Source of the DNA: Roseivirga sp.
GTDB taxonomy: Bacteria > Bacteroidota > Bacteroidia > Cytophagales > Cyclobacteriaceae
NCBI GenBank assembly: GCA_029262895.1
Contig: JAJCYM010000021.1
Span: 1-46,568, forward strand
Direction of reading: 5' to 3'
Length of the DNA stretch: 46,568 nt
Both the position numbers and the translations under genes were made by a program. Every line of letters begins with the position of its first letter. Within the stretch, counting starts at the first letter, position 1. Shown here piece by piece: positions 1-14,931 of the stretch. The notes below the pieces were generated by a model. The model did not search any database, had not been told where the DNA came from, and saw only the letters and a program-made list of their open reading frames with translations.

Positions 1-731
1 CCAATAGGGTCGTTGCCACCAAAGTACTTTTCTGCCATGGATTCAGAGATGACCACTGAGTTCATATCCGACAAGACCGCCTGCCGGTCTCCGCGCACCA
101 TCTTAAAATCGAACATGGAAAGGATATCCGGGTCCGCCATAAAGAATTGGTCTTCGGAGAAGATGTTGTTACCGTATTCCACCGTCACTTTGGGGTCTCT
201 TGTGAAGTTGGTCAGACGAGTAAAGGCCTCAACCTCGGGCAATCTGGTTTGGATGTTCGGAGGCATTGGTGCTGAAACTTTCACCCATCCATTGCCAGTG
301 TCCACATCACCAGTTACCAGGCGATAGACGTCATCAACTCTTGGATTAGCCCGGTCGTAGCTAAGCTCATATTGGATATGTAAATAGCATAGCAAACAAG
401 CGGCTATACCAATGGAAAGCCCTGTTACATTGAGGGTGAAAAAGAATTTGTTCTTTAACAAACTGCGAATTGATGTTTTAAAGTAATTTCTAAGCATGGC
501 AACGTGATTTGATGAATATCTGAGTTCTTTTCTTCTTAAAATGCTCATTCGCAAAAACCTGACGGTGTTATACAAGAATAGCCAGTCCGTGGCGAATTTG
601 CTTTTATGGCTTCGGTTGATTTCATATTGTTCCAATAAATCCCCGACAATGCCTTCCTGCAATTGTTCAGGGCAGAATGATCTTAAAAACTTCAAGATCC
701 ACTTGGGCGGTGAAGGCGCATTGGTATTCAT
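1..731 (-). CDS. FtsX/MacB-like ABC transporter permease, N-terminal part (cut by window edge)
   Basis: Reading the minus strand from an ATG at 731 gives one open frame to the window edge, about 243 residues. The first 70 or so residues are a soluble prefix with the motif GDLLEQYE. This resembles the prefix domain that precedes many Bacteroidetes FtsX-like permeases. A second methionine begins MLRNYFKTSIRSLLKNKFF, followed by a transmembrane helix (LNVTGLSIGIAACLLCYLHI) and the start of a MacB periplasmic domain (YELSYDRAN, VYRLVTG). The start at 731 overlaps the PadR stop codon by one base (TAATG), so the two are probably translationally coupled. Family members export peptides, lipoproteins or antibiotics, or act in envelope signalling. 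The substrate here is unknown, and the ATPase and C-terminal helices lie outside the window. Confidence 0.85.
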   Translation of the reverse strand, partial: MNTNAPSPPKWILKFLRSFCPEQLQEGIVGDLLEQYEINRSHKSKFATDWLFLYNTVRFLRMSILRRKELRYSSNHVAMLRNYFKTSIRSLLKNKFFFTLNVTGLSIGIAACLLCYLHIQYELSYDRANPRVDDVYRLVTGDVDTGNGWVKVSAPMPPNIQTRLPEVEAFTRLTNFTRDPKVTVEYGNNIFSEDQFFMADPDILSMFDFKMVRGDRQAVLSDMNSVVISESMAEKYFGGNDPI

Positions 732-1057
732 TACAAGGGCTTGAGTTCAGGGATTAAATTCAACAGGCTTTGGCGTTTTTCGTTAGTCTCCCTAAGGATT
801 CTGAATCCCAAAGAGGTCAATTGAAAAATGCGCTTTCTGCGACCTCCTCTTTGCGCTGTGGCCCCTCTCATCTCAGAACTCACCAGCCCCTTGTCTTCCA
901 GTCTGTACAAGGTGACATGTACCGCGCTGAGGTTTACAGCTCGATCCATTCTTGATTTGATTTCCTGAACAATGTTGATGCCGTAGGCCTCCTCCTTTAG
1001 CAAAGCGCAGGTGAGCATTAAAAGCTCTTCGAATTCCCCTAGATAGTCGCCCTTCAT
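731..1057 (-). CDS. PadR family transcriptional regulator
   Basis: This is a 108-residue winged-helix protein starting MKGDYLGEFEELLML, a typical PadR N-terminus, with LSAVHVTLYRLEDKGLV as recognition helix and wing and a short C-terminal helix. PadR proteins bind palindromic promoter DNA as dimers and usually repress a neighbouring transporter. An in-frame ATG 48 bases upstream (1105) would add 16 residues, but this extension covers the palindrome at 1084-1095 and is not typical of the family, so 1057 is preferred. The stop codon overlaps the permease start, so the regulator is first gene of an operon with the transporter. The N-terminal half and upstream region recur at 7180-7399 as a broken copy. 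Confidence 0.9.
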   Translation of the reverse strand: MKGDYLGEFEELLMLTCALLKEEAYGINIVQEIKSRMDRAVNLSAVHVTLYRLEDKGLVSSEMRGATAQRGGRRKRIFQLTSLGFRILRETNEKRQSLLNLIPELKPL

Positions 1058-1083
1058 AACTATAACTTTTGTCAGACTAATAT

Positions 1084-1095
1084 AAGTATATACTT
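1084..1095. promoter_or_regulatory. Perfect 12-bp palindrome upstream of padR, probable operator
   Basis: AAGTATATACTT is a perfect palindrome 27 bases upstream of the padR start, with TTTGACAAA and TCTGACAAA on its two sides on the minus strand. PadR proteins commonly autoregulate through such sites. The same block is kept unchanged upstream of the truncated copy (7378-7389), which supports a function. The regulator binding it is inferred. Confidence 0.5.
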
Positions 1096-1203
1096 TGTCA
1101 AACATATGAAAGACCCAAGAATTCGGAAAGAATTGTATGGGAGAGTTTTAAGAAAGCTGGGAATGGATTGAAATAGAATATTTTGGTGGAAGAGTCAACT
1201 TAA

Positions 1204-2427
1204 CTACTTGGCTTGTTCCTCTCCCTCGGCAAAGTACTCTATGAGTTCTTCTTTGGTCCTATCAAGGTGGGCTAGTTTCTTTGTAGCATGCCTGGAGGCT
1301 AAAAATGCCATATCACTTTCCGTCTTGGTCTTATTGAAAGCATCATTGTTCAATGAGACATCTTCCTTGGTTTTTGGGCGGATGATGCTGTCCCTCATTT
1401 TTTCAAAGTAATCTTCCAGCTCTTTACTTTTCTCTTCCGATTCTTTTTGCAATCTATCTGCAATAATTGGAAGCTTGTCCAGAGCATTCGGCCTTGAAAT
1501 TTCCTGGCATTTGGGAATAAGTTGCCCCAGTTGAGACTTGTAGGTTTCAATCATTTTCAGGCCGGTCTTGCCGGTATTAAGAAACAGTAGGTCAGGATAG
1601 AAAGAACCACTTTTGTCAATTCGATCATATTCAGAAGCGAGGACGCTCTCCGACATGATAAAGCTATAAGCCCTGATTGGCTTGTTGGACACGTATAGCT
1701 TGAAATTCTTGAAATTCAATACCCGATAGAGGTATTCGTAATGAGCAATTATATTGGGATAAAGTTGTTTCAAAACGAACTCCTTGGATTCCATCCACTC
1801 ATCGGAACCCTTCTGATTAAGATGTAGAGGAATCTGACAGATTCGGGTATACTTGAATTCAACTCCTTTTGATATCTGCTCTTCGATCTTTTTGTTGATT
1901 TCAGCCATATATTTTTTGTACAAACTATGGAAGGTATCATAAATCTCCTGTCGTTCTTGGTTGTCCTTGGCATAAGGCAGTTTTTGAAAAAGCTGGAAAT
2001 TATTGGCTAAATAATCAAGGATAACAAGCTCTTCCTCTGCGCTTCTCACTATATAAATGAGTACATCAAAATACTCTTTCAGGAAATGCAGGTAGTTACC
2101 ATTCTCGCCAAAGTCGGTTTGATAGGATAATAGACTGGTGAATTTGATCCCTTCTTTCTTTACCCCTTTGTTTTCTTCCCCAGAAAAGATCAAGTCATCA
2201 TCGTCCAAACCAAAAAAACTTGGTGATAAGTTGAGGGCGTAAGCGAACATGGCCGCGTAAGGCTTTGAGATTTCATCAGCGTCAAGAAGACTGTACAAGG
2301 TGCTTCTGGAGACATGGTATTTCTTGAATAAATGGGTGATGGTAATTTTCCGATCCCTCATGATCCGAAGAATTTTTCTCGTGTTGAACTGAATTTTATC
2401 CTCTTTTTTTTCTTCCTGCTCGGCCAT
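1204..2427 (-). CDS. Helix-turn-helix (XRE-like) regulator with large C-terminal sensor-like domain
   Basis: From the ATG at 2427 the protein has 407 residues. Residues about 17-70 form an XRE-like helix-turn-helix (ITITHLFKKYHVSRSTLYSLL followed by AYALNLSPSFF). The rest is a soluble alpha/beta region with segments EEELVILDYLANN, GVEFKYTRICQIPL and FKLYVSNKPIRAYSF. These faintly recall the PLD-like sensor folds attached to some regulators, but no HKD catalytic motif is visible. The last 90 residues are charged and probably helical or coiled-coil. An upstream in-frame ATG at 2487 is less likely because a good -33/-7 promoter lies between the two. The gene is divergent from the DUF4407 operon and probably controls it. 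The sensor domain is not assigned to a family with confidence. Confidence 0.75.
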   Translation of the reverse strand: MAEQEEKKEDKIQFNTRKILRIMRDRKITITHLFKKYHVSRSTLYSLLDADEISKPYAAMFAYALNLSPSFFGLDDDDLIFSGEENKGVKKEGIKFTSLLSYQTDFGENGNYLHFLKEYFDVLIYIVRSAEEELVILDYLANNFQLFQKLPYAKDNQERQEIYDTFHSLYKKYMAEINKKIEEQISKGVEFKYTRICQIPLHLNQKGSDEWMESKEFVLKQLYPNIIAHYEYLYRVLNFKNFKLYVSNKPIRAYSFIMSESVLASEYDRIDKSGSFYPDLLFLNTGKTGLKMIETYKSQLGQLIPKCQEISRPNALDKLPIIADRLQKESEEKSKELEDYFEKMRDSIIRPKTKEDVSLNNDAFNKTKTESDMAFLASRHATKKLAHLDRTKEELIEYFAEGEEQAK

Positions 2428-2445
2428 GATTGTATGAATATTGAA

Positions 2446-2476
2446 CAAATGTAGTATAAACGCACTTTTCCTCCAA
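2446..2476 (-). promoter_or_regulatory. Bacteroidetes-type promoter of the HTH regulator gene
   Basis: On the minus strand a TTG (2476-2474) is followed after 20 bases by TACATTTG (2453-2446), which fits the Bacteroidetes -33 TTG / -7 TAnnTTTG pattern. The start codon used (2427) lies 18 bases after the box. The 11-mer ACAAATGTAGT here recurs in opposite orientation at 2538-2548 in the promoter of the divergent operon. Confidence 0.6.
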
Positions 2477-2537
2477 TCAGTGGGCACCTGTTTTTATTTG
2501 GAAATTATCTTTTTTCAGAATATATATGTTGTGTAAA

Positions 2538-2551
2538 ACTACATTTGTAGT
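2538..2551 (+). promoter_or_regulatory. -7 box inside a perfect inverted repeat, promoter/operator of the DUF4407 operon
   Basis: ACTACA-TT-TGTAGT is a perfect 6+6 inverted repeat and contains TACATTTG (2540-2547), a TAnnTTTG -7 box on the plus strand, 77 bases before the DUF4407 start. A T-rich stretch at 2508-2516 stands where a -33 element would be. A protein bound to the palindrome would block the -7 box. The regulator at 1204-2427 is the natural candidate. Confidence 0.5.
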
Positions 2552-2624
2552 ATAATCATAAGTTATGAACAACTTTTCAAAATATTCTCCGTTACAAGTA
2601 CAAGATCAACTTAAAAACTAAACT

Positions 2625-4262
2625 ATGCAAACCAAAAACCTTAATTGGCTGCAGAGAGTGCTTTGCAGAATTGGTGGAGCTGAGCTCGAGATACTCGAGC
2701 AATGCCCCGCTGAGAAAAATAAGTTTATCGCCATAGGTATTGGCGTAATTAATACCGCCATGCTATCAGTGTTCACCATGGGCTACGCCATGCTCTCGGT
2801 GATGGGCGGAGAGATTCAAACCAATAATCAGCTGGTAGCGATTATTGCCTTCTCTCTTTTTTGGGGCTTTATCATCTTCGGTATAGACTGGGGCCTGATC
2901 ACAACCATGCGCAAAAAAGCGAAGTACGGATTAGGTTCCGGGCTACAGCTCTTTTTCACTACCCTCTTTCGTTTAGTAGTAGCAGCGGTGATATCCTTTA
3001 CAGTATCCCTGCCGCTAGAGACCCTTGTATTCAAGGACTACCTCCCCTCTGCTAAAAACGAAATGAGGCTCGAATACGAAGCCAAGAATAACCTTGCGCC
3101 CAGTAGCACCATCAATGAGCTTGATGCACAGCACAACCAAGCTGAGGACGAATACCGTACTTGGTTGGCTCAGTCTCAGGAAGCATACGGCAATGATCCG
3201 TTCTTACCTCAGCTGAGCGAAACGTTCGATAAGCATAATGCAGATTATGAGAAGCAAGCCGCGGCTTACAAGCGCAGTGACAATGTGTCGTACGGAAAGA
3301 TCAGGAGAGCTCAGGCTTCTATAGATGGGCTGAAGAAGCAGATCACGGTGATCAGAGATTCAAGCAAAGTTATCGATGAGTACGAACAAGGCGTAATCAA
3401 CAAACTGGAGCAGGAGCAGACACCTTACAGACAAACCACCTCTAAAGAGCGTGGTGCGATTAACTATAGGGCCAAAGAGCTCAAGAAGGTGAAAAATGTG
3501 CGTGATAGAGCCTTGTATGCTCGTAATAATCGCATCTCCGAGATAGATTCTGTAAACCAGTCCATCAATGCCGGATATCAAAGTACCTTGATCCGTATAG
3601 CACAGAAAAATGACTCAACGGTGGAAGGTTCTGCGCGATATGAGGCCCAGAAAGTTATTGGTGAGAACAAGGTTGCAGCGTCCTCAATTGAGAAGAATAA
3701 TCTCATCAATGATATTATTGCTGTCCAGTATCTCAAACGCTGGAGAAACGACCCTGAGGCTAGCTTCGGGCAGTTGGAGATTTCCAAAAAGGCATACTAT
3801 ACCAGTCTCCTGTTAATGATTCTTATACTGGTAATAGACACCGCACCCATTGTGATCAAATTGCTCGTGAAGCGAGGTGAGTACGATGAGTTGCGCGAAA
3901 CCAGCATTTACGTATCTCGAGTGGTAGAAGAAGGTAAGCGCGTCAGAGCATTCATTGTGGAAGAGGCGATGAGGATTGCCCATGAAATCCATCAGGAGGC
4001 GTTTGCCATCAATGTGTTACGGATTGAAATGAGTAAAGAGGCCATCACTCGTATGCAAGACCTCTACACCTTTCATACAAGCTCGGTGGATATGCTGAAG
4101 GAAGAATATGCCCTTGAGATGGGTCGCTTGGAAGGACTGCTTGAGAATGAGGCTAACCCCCTGAAAAGATCTTTGCTTTCTGAGTTGAAGGAAAAGCTTA
4201 CTGACAAGTTCAGAATGGCGATGACTAGCATGAATGAGGCTTACAGAGCTGCTGTCTCTTAA
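2625..4262 (+). CDS. DUF4407 family membrane protein with long coiled-coil loop
   Basis: 545 residues. Three hydrophobic helices lie near the N-terminus (about 34-60, 70-92, 108-131), followed by a long charged region of about 250 residues rich in E, K, Q and R, a fourth helix (about 391-415, SLLLMILILVIDTAPIVIKL) and a further charged helical tail of about 120 residues. This matches DUF4407: paired helices at both ends around a large coiled-coil loop, with the FGIDWGLI motif in helix 2 and the conserved SLPLETLVF segment at the end of helix 3. The function of DUF4407 is unknown. It is first gene of a probable three-gene operon (13-base gap to the next gene) and divergent from the HTH regulator. 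Confidence 0.8.
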   Translation: MQTKNLNWLQRVLCRIGGAELEILEQCPAEKNKFIAIGIGVINTAMLSVFTMGYAMLSVMGGEIQTNNQLVAIIAFSLFWGFIIFGIDWGLITTMRKKAKYGLGSGLQLFFTTLFRLVVAAVISFTVSLPLETLVFKDYLPSAKNEMRLEYEAKNNLAPSSTINELDAQHNQAEDEYRTWLAQSQEAYGNDPFLPQLSETFDKHNADYEKQAAAYKRSDNVSYGKIRRAQASIDGLKKQITVIRDSSKVIDEYEQGVINKLEQEQTPYRQTTSKERGAINYRAKELKKVKNVRDRALYARNNRISEIDSVNQSINAGYQSTLIRIAQKNDSTVEGSARYEAQKVIGENKVAASSIEKNNLINDIIAVQYLKRWRNDPEASFGQLEISKKAYYTSLLLMILILVIDTAPIVIKLLVKRGEYDELRETSIYVSRVVEEGKRVRAFIVEEAMRIAHEIHQEAFAINVLRIEMSKEAITRMQDLYTFHTSSVDMLKEEYALEMGRLEGLLENEANPLKRSLLSELKEKLTDKFRMAMTSMNEAYRAAVS

Positions 4263-4274
4263 AATTGCAATACC

Positions 4275-5876
4275 ATGAGATCTGAAGGAAATATAGAGCA
4301 ATATGCAAAGGAGGTCATCGACCAGTATAGGGTCGATGATCTTCAGGTCAGGCAAGAGAGTCTGAAGCGTGAACAAGACACCAAAGATCAGGTGTTGGAG
4401 TTATTGTCTGGGGCAAAACCACCAGAGGAGGAGACGGGTCGCTTCTCAATCCGCGTGTTCTGGATCATTCTGCTGGTCTTTGGCTTGCTTACAGCTGGGA
4501 TCATCTTCTTGATCTATCCCAAGCATGTGGAGATTACAATTACGAATTTGGAGCCCTATCCAGTGCGTACGGCCCTCAGCTATCCAATTGGAAATGGTCA
4601 GTATGAAAATTTGGGCTGGTACGACTTGGCACCAGGTGAGTCGAGAACGGTGGAACTGACCATTCCTCGACTCACCTTTGAGGAATCCATCCTTCTTTAC
4701 GCAGAATCGAACGACCCTGACATTCTGATGATGCTACATGATGGTGAATTCAATACAGTTACCTTTCAGGCAGGGGAGAGTACCTCCCTAAGGCCTGTCC
4801 ATCTGGAGCAGAATTTTATCACCTCCTCTTTCAATCAGGGTGCACGCTTTGTAGATACCACACCGGTTGTTGAAGATACCATTCCACATGACCCTACCTG
4901 GATGCCGTTCTCCTATGTTCAATTGGAACGGAAGTCGTTTCTTAGCCTCAACTATTCAGCGCAGGAGAAAATCATCGGCCCGGATTATATCTTCCTTTTT
5001 GACGACAATGAGGAGGAGCGAAGGATATGGGCTTCGCAGTTCTACGCTTCCCTCCAGCGGAACTACAGGTTCACGCAGCAGTATGCCAGCTTGGATGATT
5101 ATCCCTTCTCTCCGGGCTTCAGCTATTCCGACAGTGTTGATTACCTCGCTGGAGTGACGGTGGAGGAAGTCGCTGAGATCGATCTTTTCGGAAATCGATT
5201 CGGACTTGCACCAGGTGATGAGATCATTGCCATGAATGGTGCCACCGTATTCAATATGGGCGATGTGTTTTACAAGTTGGCTCAATTTGGCCAGACCAGG
5301 GGCATCACTGGAAGGATACTGTATACAGTAATAAGAGAAGGGCAGGAACTCTATGTGAGTTCGTCTTACTTTTTCAATGAAGATTATTGGAGGCCAGGGC
5401 CAAAAGAGCAAGGTCAGGCATTCAGACTAGGGGCACTGGGTGCAGCCCTGTTTAACAACCGCACCGCAATGCGTGTGGCGAACAATATCGCCCGCGGTAT
5501 AAGAAATTTGTTTTCAATACATAAAGTGGAAATCGAGACTCAATTTGCATTTGATCAACGATTATTCAGATTACGCCAGTTTTTTCCAGAGAGCTTTGAC
5601 AATGGTCAGACCTTGGGAATGTTTTTACCTACCCCACTGGCCATTTTGAATCCACTTAAAGTCCTGCGCTGGACTAAAGGTGCCAGCAGGCTTAAACACA
5701 GTAAATTTTTCAAGTTGACCTCTTTTACCGTAGTCTCTGCCTTGGAGGACGCCATATTCATCGCCAATTCGGGCTCACTTCTGAGACCGAAGGATGAGTT
5801 GATGGAGCATTTGCCCAAGGAAGTAGCCTTTGGTGCTGGGATCAACATTTTAATCGGAAGTTTAACCTTTAGATAA
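4275..5876 (+). CDS. Membrane-anchored protein with DUF1036-like and PDZ-like domains
   Basis: 533 residues. A charged cytoplasmic head of about 55 residues is followed by one transmembrane helix (about 59-80) and an outside region. Residues about 86-150 (ITNLEPYPVRTALSYPIG, then NLGWYDLAPGESRTVEL) have the pattern of a DUF1036 domain: conserved GW, PGE and an alternating strand layout. Residues about 293-350 (VTVEEVAEIDLFGNRFGL, APGDEIIAMNGATV) look like a PDZ domain with its carboxylate-binding loop degenerate. No protease catalytic residues are seen, so this is more likely a binding or adaptor protein than a DegP/S2P enzyme. The C-terminal 120 residues are unassigned and end in a weakly hydrophobic stretch. 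It lies between the DUF4407 gene and a small secreted protein, all in one direction. Confidence 0.65.
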   Translation: MRSEGNIEQYAKEVIDQYRVDDLQVRQESLKREQDTKDQVLELLSGAKPPEEETGRFSIRVFWIILLVFGLLTAGIIFLIYPKHVEITITNLEPYPVRTALSYPIGNGQYENLGWYDLAPGESRTVELTIPRLTFEESILLYAESNDPDILMMLHDGEFNTVTFQAGESTSLRPVHLEQNFITSSFNQGARFVDTTPVVEDTIPHDPTWMPFSYVQLERKSFLSLNYSAQEKIIGPDYIFLFDDNEEERRIWASQFYASLQRNYRFTQQYASLDDYPFSPGFSYSDSVDYLAGVTVEEVAEIDLFGNRFGLAPGDEIIAMNGATVFNMGDVFYKLAQFGQTRGITGRILYTVIREGQELYVSSSYFFNEDYWRPGPKEQGQAFRLGALGAALFNNRTAMRVANNIARGIRNLFSIHKVEIETQFAFDQRLFRLRQFFPESFDNGQTLGMFLPTPLAILNPLKVLRWTKGASRLKHSKFFKLTSFTVVSALEDAIFIANSGSLLRPKDELMEHLPKEVAFGAGINILIGSLTFR

Positions 5877-5879
5877 AAC

Positions 5880-6404
5880 ATGCTTATGAGAAATCTGAGA
5901 ATAACTATTTTATGGGTAGCGCTTCTGGGCCTTATTTCAGTAGAAATATCTGCTCAGGGACGCCTCACCAGAGCGTTTACGAGGGCTAGTGATAGCCATC
6001 ATATCCCAACGGGATATAAGTCGATTTATAAGGCGCCTTCGACACCTCCTAAAACTACGAGTGTGTCAAAGAAGAGTGATTTTATAAATGACCACGCAAC
6101 CAAGCACGCCTATAACCCTTCCACCGTTTCGACTCCAAAGAGGACACAATATGGCAGGAACATAGACGTGAAACGCGTCCGAGAACAGACGCTTAGGAAC
6201 CCGGATCGAAAAACCGAACATGTTGGGAAGTCGAGTCCTACTCATCCATACAGAACCTATGGTGTGAAGTACGAGAAAAGGTATAATTCAAACCTTAGCA
6301 CTAAGGAGACGCCTGCAAAGACGTCCGTAGTTAGGGTCAACTATACCCATCCGCACAGGTCGACCCAGTTTCCTAAGGTTGATAAGGGCCCTAAGAAAAA
6401 GTAG
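5880..6404 (+). CDS. Small basic secreted protein, unknown family
   Basis: 174 residues, or 172 if the second ATG at 5886 is used. A signal peptide is clear (LRITILWVALLGLISVEISAQG). The mature part has low hydrophobicity and is rich in K, R, T, S, P, Y and H, with no cysteine, so it is probably extended or disordered. Pairs such as THPYRTYG and THPHRSTQ recur near the end. It starts 3 bases after the DUF1036/PDZ gene stops and is the last gene of that operon, followed by a terminator-like hairpin. I do not recognise the family. Confidence 0.65.
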   Translation: MLMRNLRITILWVALLGLISVEISAQGRLTRAFTRASDSHHIPTGYKSIYKAPSTPPKTTSVSKKSDFINDHATKHAYNPSTVSTPKRTQYGRNIDVKRVREQTLRNPDRKTEHVGKSSPTHPYRTYGVKYEKRYNSNLSTKETPAKTSVVRVNYTHPHRSTQFPKVDKGPKKK

Positions 6405-6426
6405 GACTTGGATAATCCTTAGTCAA

Positions 6427-6480
6427 GCCTGTATCACAATCTTGCGTCCTCAATGCTTATGATTGTGGTCAGGCTCTTTT
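6427..6480 (+). terminator. Terminator-like hairpin after the DUF4407 operon
   Basis: GCCTG-tat-CACAATC pairs with GATTGTG-gt-CAGGC around a 19-base loop, followed by TCTTTT. It stands 23 bases after the last stop codon of the operon. The loop is long for an intrinsic terminator, hence moderate confidence. Confidence 0.5.
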
Positions 6481-6750
6481 ACTAAAACGTTTAAACTAAC
6501 CACAACACATTTGGCACTGCCCGTGTACCAAATTAAAGGAAACAGGATTTTTTCACTTAATGCTATTACGTGTGTTTATCTAGTGGATTATGTAAAAAAA
6601 TCGCATTATGGTCTATAGAACACTGATTGCGGCTTCTTCAAAGCCGTTGATTCTTTCCTATAGTAAAAGCTCGGATATCAAATAATCAAAAATGTAGAAA
6701 GCCTTTCTCAAGGCGAGCTAGCCTGGACCCATGCCATGCTTTATCCTGTT

Positions 6751-7074
6751 TTGCATTGGATGGAGAAAATTTGATCTATTGGCAGGCATCACTGCGTTTA
6801 CCGTTGGGCTTGTTGCCTTCAGGGGAACAAAATAAATAGGCCACTATTACAGGCTTAGAACATATTTTCCTTAGTGCTACTGATCAATGTTTTAATCCAT
6901 GCCAGTTTATCCGTTCCTACTATGATGCAACAGTTTGGTTTCGAACAGCCCAATACTGCTGTGCTAAAATTTCCATTTCTCCTGTTGCCGGGTATCATCC
7001 CTACTTTGGTATATGTAGCTAATCTTGCGGGCTTTGTGATTTTGAATAGGCAACGCAAAACGCTGCAGAAATAG
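6751..7074 (+). pseudogene. Decayed copy A of a small multi-span membrane protein gene
   Basis: The DNA and broken reading frames match 11964-12280. The segment KFDLLAGITAF is in one frame, stops at a TAA after FRGTK, and the coding sense then continues in another frame as LLINVLIHASLSVPTMMQQ to a proper C-terminus (VILNRQRKTLQK). This copy therefore has a frameshift in its N-terminal half but keeps an intact 3' end, the reverse of copy B. The family appears to be a four-helix membrane protein of about 200 residues with unknown function. Confidence 0.65.
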
Positions 7075-7163
7075 ATGAGGTCAAATTATGAAGCCTAAAG
7101 AGGTTTTGTGATTTGATTTTTTCTGATCAAACCCAAATATCTCAACACCTCCTTTAACCTCCC
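6781..7163. repeat. Left copy of a direct repeat flanking the AT-rich block
   Basis: From GGCAGGCATCACTGC to CCTCCCAT this stretch matches 11982-12376 in the same orientation at most positions, with small insertions or deletions. It spans most of the membrane-protein pseudogene, the shared intergenic stretch (AATTATGAAGCCT) and the last codons of a lytTR gene. The two copies are about 5.2 kb apart. Confidence 0.75.
7137..7163 (-). pseudogene. 3' remnant of a LytTR response regulator gene
   Basis: On the minus strand this reads GRLKEVLRY, the same C-terminal residues as the intact regulator at 12346-13092, but the stop codon is lost and nothing of the gene remains upstream. It is fused to the truncated PadR copy, so a deletion or recombination joint lies between about 7164 and 7180. 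Confidence 0.6.
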
Positions 7164-7351
7164 ATTACTAAGGTCTCCAATCCTTTGTCTTCCAACCTAT
7201 ATAAGGTGACGTGTACCGCGCTGAGGTTTACCGCCCGATCCATACGGGCCTTGATTTCCTGAACAATGTTGATGCCGTAGGCCTCTTCTTTTAACAAAGC
7301 ACAGGTGAGCATTAACAGCTCTTCGAATTCCCCTAAATAGTCGCCCTTCAT
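7154..7351 (-). pseudogene. Truncated copy of the PadR regulator gene
   Basis: Residues 1-58 nearly equal those of the PadR protein at 731-1057 (one visible change, KSRMD to KARMD). The frame then leaves homology after RLEDKGL and ends with ETLVMGG, read through foreign sequence that includes the 3' end of a lytTR gene. The C-terminal dimerisation helix is lost, so the product is unlikely to work as a normal PadR, though the winged helix is nearly complete. The upstream palindrome is intact, so it may still be transcribed. Confidence 0.75.
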
Positions 7352-7377
7352 AACTATAACTTTTGTCAGACTAATAT

Positions 7378-7389
7378 AAGTATATACTT
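7378..7389. promoter_or_regulatory. Second copy of the PadR-type palindrome
   Basis: AAGTATATACTT with the same flanks as at 1084-1095, upstream of the truncated padR copy. Confidence 0.45.
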
Positions 7390-7399
7390 TGTCAAACAT

Positions 7400-7713
7400 A
7401 TAAGAGATGGGGCTTTCTCCTGAAAGTTGCGTTACTCGATTTGTAATGTGCAGTTGTAGGGAGCTTTCTACGCGGCTATTTAGAATGTAGCAATCTCCAA
7501 CCGATCAGGTCTATCTGGGGATATAGAGGTCTTATAATTCTATGTAAAGGCTTGTTATTCGAATATTTAGACTATTCAATAAATGAAAAGTAGAGTAGAC
7601 AAAAGACGTCAATACTTCAGGGGGCTAGGGTAAACACAGTTGGCATGCAGTTTACCCTGAGGCTTTAAAACAGCTAGATAAGGGTTCAGCACACCTATTC
7701 GAATGTTTTTAAA
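7400..7713. other. Gene-free stretch with one strong hairpin
   Basis: No plausible gene. A 9-bp stem (AGGGTAAAC with GTTTACCCT, 7627-7658, 14-base loop) lies between the end of the minus-strand barrel-like gene (7714) and the padR remnant. It has no T-run on the minus-strand side, so it is at best a weak terminator. The rest is AT-rich without visible structure. Confidence 0.4.
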
Positions 7714-8364
7714 TCAATATGGACAACCGCAATTGGTTGCCGGCCCTTTTCGTTTTTTACAACGGTCCTGTCTATTGGGGGTTCCATCTCGATCTGAATC
7801 CAATTTGGTGAATGGAGAAAATTTGGAGCCGAAGGCCAACTTTCTTGAATTAATAGCTCCATTAAGCCTGTATGAACCTAGAGCAAAGAAACTAAAAGAA
7901 TCATTCAAGGTGTATTCTAAAGTACCTCTTAATGCTACGATCGAAAAATTTCCATTTTCTGAAGGAATGTTACTTTCTATTAACCTGATTATGCCTAGAT
8001 CAAAACCTGCATATGCTTTTAAATTTGGCAAAATCTGGATTCTACGAAAAAGTGGGTGATCAACCTTAATAAAGAATTCTGAGTATTGGGCTCTTACTTT
8101 ACTTAAATCTGTAATGGAACCTGAGGAGAAATATGCTCCAATGCGAAATTCCTTAAACACCCTTCTTTCAACCCCTATATCAAATGAAATATTGTTGAAC
8201 TTCAGCAAACCTTCAAAGGGTATTCTGGCCGGTGAGCCATATCTGAGATTGTTCCCCGAAATACTAAATGTCCAATCTCCTGAAAGTTGATTAGAGCAAC
8301 CCTGAGATCTAGCTGGTGAACAACTAAAGAAAAAACTTGATATCAAAATTAATCTTATCAACAT
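7714..8364 (-). CDS. Secreted or outer-membrane barrel-like protein with C-terminal TSP3-type calcium motif
   Basis: 216 residues. The N-terminus (MLIRLILISSFFFSCSPARSQG) is a signal peptide, and FFSC could even be a lipobox. The body has alternating strands rich in aromatics (FDIGVERRVFKEFRIGAYFSS, LKAYAGFDLGI, LEYTLNDSFSFFALGSYRLNG), as in small outer-membrane barrels. The last 30 residues carry DSDRDGTPNRQDRC and the ending NCGCPY, a thrombospondin type 3 calcium-binding repeat that in Bacteroidetes often leads into an OmpA domain, but here the protein ends there. It is divergent from the three-gene set at 8444-11323, and its OmpA-type partner may be the protein at 9818-11323. Function unknown. 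Confidence 0.6.
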   Translation of the reverse strand: MLIRLILISSFFFSCSPARSQGCSNQLSGDWTFSISGNNLRYGSPARIPFEGLLKFNNISFDIGVERRVFKEFRIGAYFSSGSITDLSKVRAQYSEFFIKVDHPLFRRIQILPNLKAYAGFDLGIIRLIESNIPSENGNFSIVALRGTLEYTLNDSFSFFALGSYRLNGAINSRKLAFGSKFSPFTKLDSDRDGTPNRQDRCKKRKGPATNCGCPY

Positions 8365-8443
8365 TCTTCAAATTATTTTTTTAATTAAAACATAATTAAT
8401 GTAATTATACAAATGATAGCTGTATTAAATACCTAAATTCTTA

Positions 8444-8887
8444 ATGAAGTTGAGCCTACTGGAAAAAATATACGCCTGGTTCGAGGTGCCTAATGAGGTA
8501 GAATCCAATAACCAATCTGACGGATCCACAAGATCTAATACGCGAAGGGTTCGAACCTCTATAATTATAAGTGCTGTGATAATTTTTGTGACCTTACTCC
8601 TTTTGAGAAAGCAAATATTTCCACCAGATTCTATTTGGTCCGCTGAAGTAGAGGAGAGGTTTGATGCTGAATTGGATTCACTACAATCCAAATATTTGAT
8701 AGCACTGGACAACAGAAATAAACCGGCAGAACAAGACCTTGAGGCTATTATTTTTTCGTTTAGGTTCATCTTGGGAAAAATTGAAGAAACGTTAAAAAAC
8801 CCTCCCAAGAATAGAGCTGATGTAGTGTATATGCACAGGCACCTACTCGATAGTTTAGTTGGCAAAGGTAAATCTATTCGGCCATGA
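8444..8887 (+). CDS. Single-span membrane protein, unknown family
   Basis: 147 residues. A 40-residue charged N-terminus is followed by one helix (SIIISAVIIFVTLLLL, about 39-54) and a 90-residue charged, mostly helical outside part (VEERFDAELDSLQSKYLIAL). No cysteine and no known motif. Its last four bases overlap the start of the coiled-coil protein (ATGA, 8884-8887), so the two are translationally coupled. I do not recognise the family. Confidence 0.6.
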   Translation: MKLSLLEKIYAWFEVPNEVESNNQSDGSTRSNTRRVRTSIIISAVIIFVTLLLLRKQIFPPDSIWSAEVEERFDAELDSLQSKYLIALDNRNKPAEQDLEAIIFSFRFILGKIEETLKNPPKNRADVVYMHRHLLDSLVGKGKSIRP

Positions 8888-9816
8888 AATTAGCATTCAC
8901 TTCTCTATGGATAATCACACAACTGGTCATTGGTCCCAGTATTTCGGCACAAACTGATCCTAGTATCATTTTTAAACGTGAACCCTTGACTGCCAAAGAG
9001 TTACTTTTTTTTGTAAAAAGGAAATTAGAGTTAGAAGATAGGGCCGACTCCTTAAATGAAGAAGCTAGAAAGCTTGAGGAGAGGGTGGTGGTACTGAAGG
9101 CAATGGTAGCAGTCAGAGATTCTATTTTGTTGACGAATCAGATATTAATAGATGAGTTGAGGGGGGACAAGAGAGAGCTTTGGCAAAGACTTGATTACAC
9201 ACAAAGTGAGTTAAAGAATTATCGTGCTGAATTAAGACTGAAGGACGTAATGATGGACAGTATCGGCAGTGTCAATCTGAGGCTCAATCAAAGAATAGAT
9301 CGACTTGAAAGGAATCTAGTCGAAGAAAAACTTACTACAAAATTATTAGACAGTTTGTTGACCTTACGCATGGGTCAGGTCGTTGATCTAATCTACAGAA
9401 ATGTGGAGCGAAGTACTCATGTGGCAGTAAAACTGAAACCAGGGGTTGGTTCAAGAAGGTCCTTGGCAGAGATTCCGCTCGATTTTGAAAACCTAAACCT
9501 TGTAAAAAGGAACTGGATTAGTGAGATGTTCCTGAAGTTTGATTCTGGTGCTCCCGGTTTCGATGTTCTTCCTAGCTATTATTATTATTTGGGATATTTG
9601 GGCAAAGACCCCAATAATCTGGAGCCTGAATGGATATTTGGCACGCCCAAAATACCGAAATCAATTTCAGAAGTGAATGGAAAAGCCAAGGAACCCATTC
9701 GTTTCAATTTTCGAAATCATCGGGGGTATTTTGTGTTGGTTCTTTTTTATCAAGAGCTGTTGAATGGTCAAACTGTAGATCAATCAGTTAAGAGGATTGT
9801 TTTCAAGATAGATTAG
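8884..9816 (+). CDS. Secreted coiled-coil protein, unknown family
   Basis: 310 residues. Signal peptide (LAFTSLWIITQLVIGPSISAQ), then about 130 residues of heptad-like helix rich in E, L, R, K and D (KRKLELEDRADSLNEEARKL through LVEEKLTTKLLDSLLTLR). A globular C-terminal part with strands follows (IPLDFENLNLVKRNWIS, YYYYLGYLG, GYFVLVLFYQELL). No catalytic motif is seen. The architecture suggests a periplasmic adaptor or spacer. One base separates its stop from the OmpA-family gene, so the three genes 8444-11323 form one operon. Confidence 0.6.
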   Translation: MKLAFTSLWIITQLVIGPSISAQTDPSIIFKREPLTAKELLFFVKRKLELEDRADSLNEEARKLEERVVVLKAMVAVRDSILLTNQILIDELRGDKRELWQRLDYTQSELKNYRAELRLKDVMMDSIGSVNLRLNQRIDRLERNLVEEKLTTKLLDSLLTLRMGQVVDLIYRNVERSTHVAVKLKPGVGSRRSLAEIPLDFENLNLVKRNWISEMFLKFDSGAPGFDVLPSYYYYLGYLGKDPNNLEPEWIFGTPKIPKSISEVNGKAKEPIRFNFRNHRGYFVLVLFYQELLNGQTVDQSVKRIVFKID

Positions 9817-9817
9817 G

Positions 9818-11323
9818 ATGAGGTATCGCATAATTGTAATAATTATTCTATGTACTTCGGTCTCGGTGTTTGGTCAGTTGAAAAGGTATCCTGATACCTC
9901 AGTGCTTCAAGAAGAACAAAGGGACCACAAGTTTATCAAAGGAATTTCATTCTTTGATGGTCAACTACTGGCAATTACCAACAGAGGACGGTTATTAACT
10001 CTGGACACAGAATTGAATTTTATTAAAAGTCAGAAATCAACAGAATTTGGATTATCAAATTATATCAACCAAATATTCACTGGGAAGCCCGGTAGGTTTT
10101 GGCTTTCCACGGTAGAAGGTTTTGTCTTTGATCCATTGGCCAAAAGCAGAGCATATTACGATTTCAAAAGCAAAATATTAAATGTTAGTTCGGTAGGTGA
10201 GAACACGTTTGTGGCAGTAGAGAATGACCAGATTTGGGCCTTCAACGATTTTCGAGGGACAACTATTGGGGATAAAAGTCAAATTAGGATCAAAAAGAAT
10301 CGTGGAGTTCAGGGAGAGGGTTTAAAGAATGTTGCCGCTTTTGTTGGTTTAGAAATTACTCAAGGCGGGGATAAAAGGAAGGTTGTCTTTTTTGGAGGCA
10401 ATCAGGGATTAATGGCGATTTCACAATCTGGACAGGGAAGTGGTGAAGCCATTCCTCAATCTTACCAAAGAGAGATAAAGTCGATCGTGCCATATAAGAA
10501 AGGGTTTTATTTCTCATCTCAAAACAACGATTCAATACATTACTTTTCGAACAGCCCCCAGATTGAATTCGGAGCAATCGAATTACCTGAGAAAGTAGCA
10601 GGGACAGGATCCATTGAAGCAATGTTGATTGATCCATGGAACAATTTATGGGTAGTTTTCAATAACAAGATTTTCCTCACTAACATCGAAGATAGCTCTT
10701 TGAAGGTAACACTTGACAAGTCTCATTTTCTCAAATTCAACAGCTTGGTGGCCAATTCAATTACCAGCTCCGAGCAACACGTTTATGTTGCAACAGACGG
10801 TGTTGGAATCTTCCGGTTTGATATTCCACAAGTTACACAGAATGATTATGACAACACTTGCTGGTCAAAAATAGAGGAGGAGTATTATCGAGGAATTATC
10901 AAAAATGATACTGTAGTGATCTTACCATATACCGAGGCTCAATTACCCCCTGACACATTGGTTCTAGATACTGAAAAAGTGTTGACTCAAGTTAAGTTTG
11001 ATGAAAGTAGTGCAAAGCTTAAAATAGAGGCTAAGGATGTGCTTAAATCTTTGGCAATTCAACTTCGGATTGCTCAGGAGCTAGCAAGTTTTCGAATAGT
11101 TGTAAATGGCCATACTTCTAAGGAACGTAACACAAGGGAACGTACTGCAAAGCAGTTGTCCCAGAATAGAGCCAATGTTGTGCGCAACTATTTGCTGGAA
11201 TATGGACTCGAACCAGAGAATATAGAATCGTTTGGGTTGGGAGATACGGTCCCAGTTGATACTGTTGATCTGTTCAGCCCAAAAAATAGAAGGGTTACTT
11301 TAAAAATTGTCAGGGATGGATAG
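9818..11323 (+). CDS. OmpA-family protein with N-terminal propeller-like domain
   Basis: 501 residues. Signal peptide (IIVIIILCTSVSVFGQ), then about 330 residues with repeating blade-like segments (LAITNRGRLLTLD, GRFWLSTVEGFVFD, NNLWVVFNNKIFLTN, HVYVATDGVGIFRFD) like the reg_prop beta-propellers of Bacteroidetes sensors. The last 120 residues are an OmpA C-terminal domain (VKFDESSAKLKIEAKDVL, LSQNRANVVRNYLLE, NRRVTLKI). The usual GHTD has become GHTS, so one of the two residues that normally hold diaminopimelate in peptidoglycan is changed, while the arginine in NRA is kept. It is the last gene of the three-gene operon and most likely sits in the periplasm or outer membrane. Confidence 0.75.
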   Translation: MRYRIIVIIILCTSVSVFGQLKRYPDTSVLQEEQRDHKFIKGISFFDGQLLAITNRGRLLTLDTELNFIKSQKSTEFGLSNYINQIFTGKPGRFWLSTVEGFVFDPLAKSRAYYDFKSKILNVSSVGENTFVAVENDQIWAFNDFRGTTIGDKSQIRIKKNRGVQGEGLKNVAAFVGLEITQGGDKRKVVFFGGNQGLMAISQSGQGSGEAIPQSYQREIKSIVPYKKGFYFSSQNNDSIHYFSNSPQIEFGAIELPEKVAGTGSIEAMLIDPWNNLWVVFNNKIFLTNIEDSSLKVTLDKSHFLKFNSLVANSITSSEQHVYVATDGVGIFRFDIPQVTQNDYDNTCWSKIEEEYYRGIIKNDTVVILPYTEAQLPPDTLVLDTEKVLTQVKFDESSAKLKIEAKDVLKSLAIQLRIAQELASFRIVVNGHTSKERNTRERTAKQLSQNRANVVRNYLLEYGLEPENIESFGLGDTVPVDTVDLFSPKNRRVTLKIVRDG

Positions 11324-11328
11324 GTTCG

Positions 11329-11754
11329 TTACTCAAGTTCGTTTTTTCCTGCTGCCAAGGTATTTGAAATAAAGTGGACAAAGCAAGACACAGCAAATAG
11401 GACGATTTGTGCATAAACAACGATCTTCGAAGGGTTATTGTCATTAATCGTATTCTCAAGCAAAATAATGCTTGGTGCAAAACCGAAGACCAGTATTGCT
11501 GCAACGAACAAGGCAACTCTATCGGTAGATATGATTCGTGACTCTGAGTTTCTTTTTTGGACGTAGTAAAGCCTAGTTACAGATTGTCCAAACATGACAG
11601 ATGCGGCAAATGACCACTCAGGTTGATATATAATCTGATGTACTTCATCATTAATAGCAAAAATTATCAACATCAAAACAAAAGGGGAAAGGCTGAAAAG
11701 AATCTCCCCTAATGCATAATCGGAGTATTGATTCTTGCTTGTTTGCTTATTCAT
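11329..11754 (-). CDS. Small multi-span membrane protein, unknown family
   Basis: 141 residues with four hydrophobic segments (about 17-35, 46-62, 80-99, 112-132). The loops are short, and no conserved catalytic residue is visible. It converges on the OmpA-family gene with only five bases between the stops. The AT-rich composition matches the block at 7400-11950. Function unknown; the ending GKNELE is cytoplasmic if the N-terminus is. Confidence 0.55.
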   Translation of the reverse strand: MNKQTSKNQYSDYALGEILFSLSPFVLMLIIFAINDEVHQIIYQPEWSFAASVMFGQSVTRLYYVQKRNSESRIISTDRVALFVAAILVFGFAPSIILLENTINDNNPSKIVVYAQIVLFAVSCFVHFISNTLAAGKNELE

Positions 11755-11904
11755 CTATTCAAATGACAGTAAAATTTAAAATTAGAAAGTACAAAAATCA
11801 ATTTATAATAAATAAAAATAAAACTAATCAATAACTGAAAAAGTATAGTTATGTTCAAAACATATTGTTGAGGCAGCCTGTTATTAAAGGCTGTTAAACC
11901 TGTA

Positions 11905-12252
11905 ATTATTTACCAACGGCTTTTTACTTCTGGCTATGCTCCGGAGATAATGACCTTTGAAGGACGCAACTTTGATGTGTTGGCAGGCATCACTGCACTT
12001 ATTGTGGCCCTTGTTGCTTTCAAGAGGAACAAAATAAACGGGCCACTACTATGGGTTTGGAATGTATTTTCCTTGGTGCTTCTGATCAACGTTTTGATTC
12101 ATGCCAGTTTATCTGTTCCTACTATGATGCAACAGTTTGGTTTTGAACAACCCAATACGGCTGTGCTCAAATTTCCATTTCTCCTGTTGCTAGGCATCAT
12201 CGTTACTTTGGTGTATGTAGCTAATCTTGCGGGGTTTTGTGATTTTAAATAG
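11905..12252 (+). pseudogene. Decayed copy B of the small multi-span membrane protein gene
   Basis: From an ATG at 11950 it reads TFEGRNFDVLAGITALIV and on to VANLAGF, then a one-base insertion relative to copy A (GGGGTTTTGTG against GGGCTTTGTG) shifts the frame and ends it at CDFK. Coding sense continues upstream of the ATG (LFTSGYAPEI), so the ATG is not a true start and the N-terminal part is missing. It converges on the lytTR gene, with about 90 bases between stops. A short expressed protein cannot be excluded. Confidence 0.6.
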
Positions 12253-12376
12253 GCAACGTAAAACGCTTTAGAAATTGATTAAGTCAAATTATGAAGCCTT
12301 AAGAGGTATTGTGATTTGATTTTTTCTGATCCTAACTCCAACACCTCAATACCTCAACACTTCTTTCAACCTCCCA
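11982..12376. repeat. Right copy of the direct repeat flanking the AT-rich block
   Basis: Same orientation and content as 6781-7163, including the last codons of the intact lytTR gene (12346-12376). Homologous recombination between the two copies would remove the five envelope genes between them. Confidence 0.75.
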
Positions 12377-13092
12377 TGCCCGCTTCTGCTCACCGGCAAC
12401 TGCTTGCCATTTTTAAGAGAGAGTAAGTAAGAATCCTTCTCATAGAGCTCGAGTTTTTCGATGGCCGAGGTGGCTACTATATGCGAGCGATGGATACGGA
12501 TAAACTCACCATTAGGCAGGTTTTCTTCCAGGTGCTTCATACGGATTTGCTTAAGGAATTTACCTTGTTCGGCATGAACGGCTACGTAGTCGTCCTGTGC
12601 TTCAAAATGGTGAATGTCGGCCAGGGCTAGAATATGAATTTTATTGCCGGTTTTAACCACAATGCGATCGATGGTCTCCCCCATGGACTCCCGGCTTTCA
12701 TTTAAAGAGTCAATTTCTCCCTTGACCGGGGCCTGAGATTCGATCTTTTCAATCGCTTTTTTGACCGCCTCAGCAAAGCGGGTATCTGTATAAGGCTTAA
12801 GTAGATAATCGGTAGCGTTAAGCTCGAAGGCTTTCAATGCATATTCGTCAAAGGCGGTACTGAAGATTACTACAGGAGGTTCTTCAATCAGCTCCAACAT
12901 TTCAAAACCGGTGATCTTCGGCATTTGAATGTCAAGGAAAATTAAATCAGGCTTGATTTCCTGAACAGCCTTCAACCCTTGAAAGCCATCACTGCATTGC
13001 TGAACGACTTCAATATTCTCAAAGGGTTTTAAGAAGGCTAGAATTATATCTCTGGCCAGTTGTTCGTCATCAATAATAATGGCTTTGATCAT
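12346..13092 (-). CDS. LytTR family response regulator
   Basis: 248 residues. The receiver domain (1-120) has acidic residues D8 and D9, phospho-acceptor D54 (LIFLDIQMPK), the conserved threonine in FSTAFDEYAL and lysine in LLKPY. The C-terminal LytTR DNA-binding domain (about 145-248) carries the typical RIHRSHIV and LPVSRSG motifs. The start overlaps the stop of the kinase gene by four bases (ATGA). LytTR proteins bind two 9-base direct repeats two helical turns apart, and such a pair is seen upstream of this operon at 15049-15081, so autoregulation is likely. Most similar in layout to LytR/YpdB-type two-component systems. Confidence 0.95.
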   Translation of the reverse strand: MIKAIIIDDEQLARDIILAFLKPFENIEVVQQCSDGFQGLKAVQEIKPDLIFLDIQMPKITGFEMLELIEEPPVVIFSTAFDEYALKAFELNATDYLLKPYTDTRFAEAVKKAIEKIESQAPVKGEIDSLNESRESMGETIDRIVVKTGNKIHILALADIHHFEAQDDYVAVHAEQGKFLKQIRMKHLEENLPNGEFIRIHRSHIVATSAIEKLELYEKDSYLLSLKNGKQLPVSRSGHGRLKEVLRY

Positions 13093-14147
13093 ACTTCGGG
13101 ATTGATTTGAGGGATGTCCAACCTTACCGTGAATAAGTTATCAGTCTTGGAGATGAAAAGCAATTGTGGTACTCCATAGATCAACTCCAGTCGCTGACTT
13201 ACATTTTTTAATCCGATGCCTTTGCCCTTTTTGCTGACAGCCTTAGGGTCGTATTCATTAGAAATGAAAATTCTTAAGACATCTTTTTCAACCAAAGTTT
13301 TGAGTTGGATGGTGATCTTTTCCAGGCTCTCATAAATGCCATGTTTGATAGCGTTTTCCAGCAATGGCTGTAAAATCAGGTTGGGTAATTGTAACTGCAT
13401 AGAATCAGGATGTAGCTCCTTTTCAATATTGAGTCGGTCACCAAAACGTACCTTTTCGATGTCCAGATAGAGCAAGACATTATTCAATTCCTCCTCGACT
13501 GTGTTGAGTTGGTTGTTTTCTTTACCGAGAGAATAGCGCAAAAATTCAGACAGCTTCACCACCATGTTTCGTGCCCTTTCCGGTGCGGTAATGGTCAACG
13601 AGGAGATTGAGTTGAGGCTATTAAATATAAAATGAGGGTTGATTTGAGATTTCAACATCTCCAATTCAGATTCCCTCAGCATGGTTTCCAATTGCGACTG
13701 ACTTTGCACCTTGGCTCGGAGGTCATCATAATACCTTATAAGATGATAGACCAGAATAATGATTGAATAGTACATCAGGCCAAGGCCAGCTCTCCAGGCA
13801 ACTGAGGTTTGCAGAAAGAAGAGGTATTCTTCGTCTGTAGGGAAAGCCCTTTGGAGCAGCATCAAACTGAGAAAGATAACTCCGGCAATGGATAATGCTG
13901 CAGCGGCCAAATGACTGGCAATCAAATTGATTAATTGATCTGTATCAAAGCTGTTGTAACGCACGATAAACCAAAAGGCCAGGCCAAGTACAGCGAACAT
14001 ACCATTGAAAACCAGGCTATCAAGCAGCGCTTCATTGATCGGGTACTCATAGGAATAGAATAAGACCAGCGCGTAAAGCCCACTTATAAACAGCCAGATA
14101 ACTGAATAGTAGATCGCATTCTGATTTGATAAAAAAGGATGACGCAT
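13089..14147 (-). CDS. LytS/YehU-type sensor histidine kinase
   Basis: 352 residues. Four hydrophobic helices fill the first 140 residues, with no sizeable outside domain, so the signal is probably membrane-borne. A short coiled coil leads to the His_kinase motif QINPHFIFNSLNSIS with phospho-acceptor H172. The ATPase part follows (PLLENAIKHG as N-box, GKGIGLKNVSQRL as G-box). It pairs with the LytTR regulator that overlaps its end. The start codon directly follows the T-run of an intrinsic terminator, so its expression is likely set by read-through from the upstream LiaF-like gene. Confidence 0.93.
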   Translation of the reverse strand: MRHPFLSNQNAIYYSVIWLFISGLYALVLFYSYEYPINEALLDSLVFNGMFAVLGLAFWFIVRYNSFDTDQLINLIASHLAAAALSIAGVIFLSLMLLQRAFPTDEEYLFFLQTSVAWRAGLGLMYYSIIILVYHLIRYYDDLRAKVQSQSQLETMLRESELEMLKSQINPHFIFNSLNSISSLTITAPERARNMVVKLSEFLRYSLGKENNQLNTVEEELNNVLLYLDIEKVRFGDRLNIEKELHPDSMQLQLPNLILQPLLENAIKHGIYESLEKITIQLKTLVEKDVLRIFISNEYDPKAVSKKGKGIGLKNVSQRLELIYGVPQLLFISKTDNLFTVRLDIPQINPEV

Positions 14148-14170
14148 AAAAAAACCGCCTGTTCAGGCGG
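14148..14170 (-). terminator. Intrinsic terminator between the LiaF-like gene and the kinase gene
   Basis: On the minus strand CCGCCTG-AA-CAGGCGG forms a perfect 7-bp GC-rich stem followed by seven T, and the kinase ATG comes immediately after the last T. The hairpin would also occlude any ribosome landing site for the kinase. It probably lowers kinase and regulator levels relative to the LiaF-like protein. Confidence 0.85.
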
Positions 14171-14211
14171 AATTTAGTGAATTATAAAGTATCATTCTTG
14201 AGGAAGGAGGC

Positions 14212-14931
14212 TTATTTAACCTCACCTCCACCAAACAATACAAGACCTTGAATGACCAGTTCCTTACCTTGATTGTTTTCATTTTCTGCAATCATCTTGC
14301 GTTCATCGCTGAACCCTCCGAAGATAGCTGTTACCTTAACTTTGACATTCATGTCTGAAGGAACTCTAATTTCCGTACCTCCAAACAAAACAAATACATC
14401 CAAAATATTTGTGCCCTGTGCTAATTCTGCATTTAGCAGATCCAATTCGGTTCCGCCAAATATTGAAGTGAGTTTTCCGCCTTTGAATTCTTTAGAGGAG
14501 ATCACTTTTTTGGCTCCGCTGAAAACGCCTAGTTCGTCCGCGTAGTCTGATGAGTCTCCGTCAGTCCTTTTTTTTTCGCGATAGCCATCACTCGATCGTC
14601 CTCCTCGCTTGAGTATCAATGAGATTCCGATTATGATAAAGACCAGAGGCCAAAGATTGGCAAAATCCCAGAAGTCGAAGTCCCAATCCAATTCATAGGC
14701 AATATCATTCAACATGAATAAGCCACCTATGATTAACATGGTGAGACCAAGCCCCGTTTTTTCTCTTACCGTGATAAAGAAAATACCCATCAGGATAAGA
14801 ATAGAGTGCCAGGAAAAGATGTAATAAGGAAGCCTGAAGTTGAAAATTTCCAGGTTGTCCATAAAGAGAAGCGCACCTACGGCTAGAAAAATCCCTCCTG
14901 TTAATACGCGTTTGTTAGATGACTGTGACAT
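14212..14931 (-). CDS. LiaF-like membrane protein (LiaI/LiaF transmembrane plus C-terminal domain)
   Basis: 239 residues. Four hydrophobic segments lie in the first 110 residues (TGGIFLAVGALLFMDNL, YIFSWHSILILMGIFFI, GLTMLIIGGLFMLNDI, LWPLVFIIIGISLIL), an acidic DWDFDFWDF stretch between them, and a C-terminal beta-strand domain with repeats of the form FGG (TSIFGGTELDL, VLFGGTEIRVPSD, TAIFGGFSDER, VLFGGGEVK). This fits the LiaF family. In Firmicutes LiaF restrains the LiaS kinase until cell-envelope stress. By analogy this protein may modulate the LytS-type kinase downstream, or be its main output. First gene of the operon, with an identified promoter and LytTR-box pair upstream. Confidence 0.85.
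   Translation of the reverse strand: MSQSSNKRVLTGGIFLAVGALLFMDNLEIFNFRLPYYIFSWHSILILMGIFFITVREKTGLGLTMLIIGGLFMLNDIAYELDWDFDFWDFANLWPLVFIIIGISLILKRGGRSSDGYREKKRTDGDSSDYADELGVFSGAKKVISSKEFKGGKLTSIFGGTELDLLNAELAQGTNILDVFVLFGGTEIRVPSDMNVKVKVTAIFGGFSDERKMIAENENNQGKELVIQGLVLFGGGEVK

Follow-up and report, generated by a model that had tools for sequence, protein, structure and literature searches.

A helix-turn-helix regulator facing a putative three-gene envelope operon with a long, divergent DUF4407 protein in Roseivirga sp.

We describe a four-gene locus near one end of a 46,568-nucleotide stretch of Roseivirga sp. DNA (contig JAJCYM010000021.1 of assembly GCA_029262895.1, family Cyclobacteriaceae), which we call the window throughout. 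At this locus a gene for a helix-turn-helix (HTH) regulator faces, across a short intergenic region, three genes for proteins of the cell envelope: a long DUF4407 protein, a one-span protein with a probable PDZ-like domain, and a small basic protein. That one regulator faces one envelope operon is well supported as a statement of anatomy. The function that we prefer for the locus, an autoregulated cassette for adaptation of the envelope, is a guess to which we give clearly less than an even chance. The set as a whole was seen only in this genome, and the claim that it forms a system stays weak without a second copy. The features of the locus are as follows.

1204 to 2427, minus strand: HTH regulator of 407 amino acids, with a weak Cro/C1-type HTH at residues 19-70 of P0001 (the regulator plus one leading residue) and a C-terminal domain without a family above cut-off
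2446 to 2476, minus strand: candidate regulator promoter of the Bacteroidetes type, TTG-N20-TACATTTG
2538 to 2550, plus strand: candidate -7 box element of the operon, ACTACATTTGTAG, with TACATTTG at 2540-2547 inside the palindrome CTACA-TT-TGTAG; a possible operator
2625 to 4262, plus strand: long divergent DUF4407 protein (P0002) of 545 amino acids, with four hydrophobic spans (34-52, 69-87, 109-127 and 397-415)
4275 to 5876, plus strand: one-span envelope protein (P0003) of 533 amino acids, with a span at 62-80, a PDZ-like region at about 281-358 and a C-terminal region without a known family
5880 to 6404, plus strand: small basic protein (P0004) of 174 amino acids, with a signal-like N-terminus, an isoelectric point (pI) of 10.5 and no family match
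6426 to 6480, plus strand: predicted intrinsic terminator, a long hairpin followed by CTTTT, which would close the operon behind its third gene

All four genes are intact open reading frames, at the positions given in an earlier reading of the sequence. That reading gave the gaps within the operon as 13 and 3 bases; the second is right, and the first is 12 bases. With this tight spacing, the three plus-strand genes look like a single operon that ends at the terminator following the basic-protein gene. The fold of the terminator region (6415-6490) has a free energy of -25.7 kcal/mol and a z-score of -6.83, equalled by none of 200 shuffled sequences. An Rfam scan of window positions 1-12500 gave no match.

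The intergenic region between the divergent starts is 197 bases long and carries a -7 box on each strand. The promoter consensus described for Bacteroides has TAnnTTTG at -7 and TTTG near -33 (PMC7366714). The candidate promoter of the regulator has both parts, and no TTG stands 17-23 bases from the -7 box of the operon. The start of the regulator is most likely the ATG at 2427, because the GTG upstream at 2487 lies outside the good promoter at 2476-2446. The first 11 bases of ACTACATTTGTAG recur in inverted orientation at 2445-2455, within the regulator promoter, and the inverted 11-mer ACTACATTTGT contains both -7 boxes. TACATTTG itself occurs five times on the two strands of the 46.6-kb window, twice in the gap between regulator and operon.

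The assignment of the first operon gene to DUF4407 is secure (PF14362, 100.3 bits in two stretches vs a cut-off of 31.3). Members of this family are usually about 350-450 amino acids in size, and the cassette protein falls outside that range; we nevertheless keep it as a divergent member, size being typical of the family and not strictly defining. In other genomes, the DUF4407 open frames listed reach at most 463 amino acids in the family draw and 440 in the phylum draw, with the exception of a frame of 611 in genome G085. P0002 resembles the family in its three N-terminal spans, and its fourth span carries a TAPxVIKLLxKRGxYDE stretch in common with the long protein of G085 (P0008). In contrast, its loop and tail are longer: about 270 residues separate spans 3 and 4, and the C-terminal tail is about 130 residues. 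In a tree of 31 DUF4407 rows it has an end branch of 9.25 vs a median of 0.2, and it does not group with P0008, although both branches are long and their placement is unsure. A sequence search of the PDB with the DUF4407 protein found nothing. The genome also has an ordinary short DUF4407 gene (G000:C64:108271-108606), in a neighbourhood common to a genus mate (L062, L063).

The second operon gene was described in the sequence-only reading as encoding a one-span protein with DUF1036-like and PDZ-like domains. It has a single strong hydrophobic span, as that reading said, and the protein is acidic (pI 5.0, net charge about -18). A PDZ-like domain is probable by its match to PF00595, which remains below the Pfam cut-off of 23.2 bits (18.0 bits for the whole protein, 20.8 for the piece); PDZ_6 and PDZ_2 also match weakly. 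DUF1036 found no support: neither the whole protein (E <= 1) nor the piece at residues 80-192 (E <= 10) was reported to match it, in searches where the HMMER filters discard most matches above about 0.1. The single-sequence structure model of P0003 is poor (mean predicted local distance difference test score, pLDDT, 38.8); a fold search with it gave no match at E <= 0.001, a result that we did not use. Three matches came from a PDB sequence search with the protein, all at E >= 0.19. The third operon gene appears to encode a small basic exported protein, as claimed, with a net charge of about +23. P0004 was compared with family libraries and with the open reading frames of the loci sampled below, and none of the libraries searched gave a match.

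The regulator carries a Cro/C1-type HTH (PF13443) that is sub-threshold, at 19.8 bits vs a cut-off of 22. The large unassigned domain proposed to lie behind it indeed matches no described family above cut-off; the best further Pfam match is DUF7004, with 16.4 bits vs a cut-off of 27. A PLD-like sensor fold was considered for this domain, but no PLD family was reported for the regulator in Pfam at E <= 1, a PDB sequence search with the regulator profile gave nothing at E <= 1, and a literature search on PLD-like HTH regulators found no match. Its single-sequence structure model is likewise too poor to be of use (mean pLDDT 38.3).

A relative of the regulator, P0005, is encoded in G065, a genome of another genus (L040:8944-10110). 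The two proteins are 26% identical, and their local alignment score of 193 compares with 41.6 +/- 6.5 for shuffled sequences, none of 500 of which scored as high. By eye, the first 70 residues of P0005 look HTH-like. P0005 was found in one of 79 relatives of G065, which is G065 itself; a second species of the genus is without it. Like the window regulator, P0005 faces an operon (L040:6057-10110 in all), here of genes for a 665-residue envelope protein that has one span as well as MORN and TPR repeats, and for a 183-residue basic protein with a signal-like start (P0007, no Pfam family match), followed by a hairpin (z-score -3.67). Unlike the window, G065 has no DUF4407 match, its envelope protein is of the MORN/TPR kind, and the operator-like element is not shared. 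The comparison suggests a similarity of plan with exchangeable membrane parts, seen at two loci only.

The earlier reading named, as support for a system, recurrence of the same four genes together in distant genomes. We did not find this within the sample searched, and within that sample the genes are not neighbours in related genomes either. The counts that follow take in the window's own genome wherever a draw contained it, and weak relatives may be missed in the large draws, where scoring was limited to four candidates per genome. Among 148 family genomes, 83 had a DUF4407 match; a two-row profile at E <= 1e-10 matched in 87 of 296 phylum genomes. The regulator matched in two of 148 family genomes, two of 390 in a larger family draw and two of 395 phylum genomes, the second of which was rejected: this match (G462, E 6.9e-4) is a 236-residue open reading frame that resembles a sulfate-assimilation reductase by eye, and we judged it to be chance. 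A profile of the sensor core matched in 18 of 79 genomes at E <= 0.1, namely the pair already described and 16 others in which only weak pieces matched (E 0.003-0.094), with internal stops in several of them.

Neighbourhoods were sampled as 12-kb stretches around 20 DUF4407 genes (from 20 of the 83 matching genomes) together with the loci of G085 and G065. With blastp at E <= 0.01 and open reading frames of at least 80 amino acids, neither the PDZ-like nor the basic protein had a relative at these loci, and a relative of the regulator was present at the G065 locus only, with none in the 20 DUF4407 neighbourhoods. In this respect the cassette differs from the 20 other DUF4407 genes sampled, as its partners were not seen beside them. 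The neighbours were not scanned for PDZ domains, and an unrelated PDZ gene alongside would escape. No neighbour cluster of short DUF4407 genes occurred in more than six of the 23 sources compared. Plasmid searches with P0001, P0002 and P0003, a phage search with P0001 and pattern-based scans of viral contigs gave no match. A recurring system, a complex of the DUF4407 and PDZ-like proteins, and the sensing of something outside the cell, all suggested earlier, are unsupported by these searches.

Two candidate relatives of the PDZ-like protein were inspected and set aside. The best phylum match (G385, E 3e-4) is a 249-residue open reading frame that looks like a methyltransferase by eye and was judged to be chance; weaker phylum matches in G203 and G260 were not inspected. 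A planctomycete match (L038, residues 290-346) lies in a long open reading frame that by eye resembles a repeat-containing surface protein and is chance-like; it came from a pattern-based scan of a species genome collection, which detects close relatives only.

The only other long DUF4407 protein found, P0008 of G085, has 606 amino acids, and its gene comes after genes for vWA, PP2C and kinase proteins in one run (L039:7953-12821). This run lies in a defence island (L039 1264-17941) with PtuA, PtuB, PDC-M22A and B, PDC-S31 and a type I specificity subunit. Of the proteins of the run, the kinase has a match to mad6 (E 1.9e-11) and the PP2C protein has one weak PADLOC match (E 0.003); at E <= 0.01 PADLOC gave no match for P0008 or the vWA protein. 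According to one account (PMC11090510), TerY-P triads combine vWA, PP2C and kinase proteins and have links to restriction systems, and similar modules are linked to anti-phage defence. The G085 run may be a TerY-P-like system that includes a membrane component. What the window cassette has in common with it is a small operon whose membrane component is a long DUF4407 protein. It differs in that no relative of the window regulator or PDZ-like protein was found at the G085 locus, and in that there is no TerY-P triad: vWA, PP2C and Ser/Thr kinase proteins are absent among the 20 window proteins scanned, a scan that covered 731-26464 apart from a few small genes.

In the reading that we tentatively prefer, the HTH protein would bind the 11-base element at both promoters and repress its own gene together with the operon; contact of its C-terminal domain with an intracellular signal would lift the repression. 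The DUF4407 protein would sit in the inner membrane, with a large periplasmic loop, probably a coiled coil, and a cytoplasmic tail, as its spans indicate. The PDZ-like protein would be held by its one span with the PDZ-like domain in the periplasm, and the basic protein, once exported, may attach through its charge to the acidic PDZ-like protein or to components of the outer envelope. The joint effect of the three products would be to strengthen or reshape the envelope in response to the stress detected by the regulator. In favour of this reading are the close spacing of the operon genes and the terminator after them, the divergent promoters with their common inverted 11-mer, the opposite charges of the PDZ-like and basic proteins, and the layout at the locus of P0005.

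Several observations weigh against this autoregulated envelope cassette. The 11-mer common to the two promoters is of marginal significance and suggestive only, as a direct or inverted 11-mer repeat arises in 3.9% of 3000 simulated regions. A single place in the 5.79-Mb genome has the palindrome ACTACATTTGTAG, and its rarity proves nothing because the backward control pattern is equally rare, also at one place. The membrane orientation of the proteins is predicted from hydropathy alone. The PDZ-like protein was found in one of 59 relatives at E <= 0.001, which is the window's own genome, and in four of 395 phylum genomes at E <= 0.01, these being its own genome and three with weak matches. The comparison with G065 brings further difficulties: BLAST similarity between the regulators spans residues 61-307, and P0005 has no HTH profile match at E <= 0.1. 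The 310-base intergenic region of G065 has no 10-mer in common with that of the window, and it holds one -7 box, on the operon strand, without a -33 TTG at 17-23 bases. The large envelope proteins of the two loci have no detectable relation, their score being reached by 59% of 500 shuffles, and that between the basic proteins is marginal only (3%).

Nearly as likely, in our view, is that the genes share transcription and not a job: a rare orphan regulator would by chance adjoin an operon specific to the lineage, and the DUF4407 protein would act as it does elsewhere, on its own. The wide distribution of DUF4407 as a gene fits this explanation, as do the failure of blastp to find relatives of its partners in the 20 other neighbourhoods and the want of a credible relative of the PDZ-like protein. 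However, the gaps of 12 and 3 bases and the strong terminator behind the third gene are less readily explained by it. In addition, P0002 has a very long branch and is much longer than the usual DUF4407 protein, as if its job had changed, and the relative of the regulator shows a similar layout in G065.

A broader proposal, which we consider unlikely, is that the locus belongs to an undescribed modular class in which members of a new HTH sensor family each face an operon ending in a small basic exported protein. The anchored parts would be swapped between lineages, DUF4407 and PDZ-like proteins here and a MORN/TPR protein in G065. Long DUF4407 proteins would have the role of membrane transducer in this cassette as well as in the vWA-PP2C-kinase operons that occur in defence islands.

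Improbable in our view is a module for conflict, either anti-phage or stress-response, where the HTH protein would silence a membrane transducer or effector, namely the long DUF4407 protein. The defence island around P0008, with vWA, PP2C and kinase genes before it, the reported links of such modules to restriction and defence, and the sporadic occurrence of the window's gene set all point this way. However, PADLOC-DB 2.0.0 gave no family at E <= 1 for any of the four cassette proteins, in addition to the negatives for P0008 and the vWA protein. The 20 window proteins scanned give no hint of defence (PadR, OmpA, LytTR two-component, LiaF, fumarase, RecJ and others), and P0002 and P0008 stand apart in the tree, in so far as such long branches can be placed. 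Least probable of all is a device for export or competition, with an antibacterial or surface-binding basic protein and with DUF4407 and PDZ-like proteins that protect its maker or aid its export: the protein is small, strongly basic and signal-bearing in appearance, and its gene is the last in both the window and G065 operons, but neither P0004 nor (in Pfam) P0007 has a family match and no ABC exporter is found among the cassette genes.

On one side of the cassette lies a PadR gene (731-1105), next to an open reading frame that looks permease-like by eye (3-731) and is cut by the contig end. On the other side, a decayed mosaic at about 6756-7407 repeats, in direct orientation, sequences of 11968-12377 (84%) and of the PadR region at 880-1113 (90%). 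Direct repeats (864-1113, 6740-7420 and 11957-12377) thus stand around the cassette. In the mosaic, a shortened copy of PadR is fused to a second copy of a small membrane protein and of the 3' end of a gene for a LytTR regulator; elsewhere in the genome, one more relative of the PadR part occurs (72%, C56). By recombination, such repeats could permit loss or duplication of the cassette. Just downstream, at 8444-11323, is a second three-gene run. Its first product is small and probably has one span, the next is a coiled-coil protein of exported appearance, and the last has an OmpA domain, the only domain assigned above cut-off in this run. At 12346-14931, genes for a LytTR response regulator, a histidine kinase and a LiaF-like protein stand in a row and resemble a cell-envelope stress system.

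The C-terminal domain of the regulator may represent an undescribed sensor family. DUF4407 is common in the phylum, yet the literature found, in the passages available, only lists its name among other genes or domains. The two long DUF4407 forms, in Roseivirga sp. and in G085, sit in operons with interpretable partners, and thus offer two concrete places in which the role of this family may be tested.

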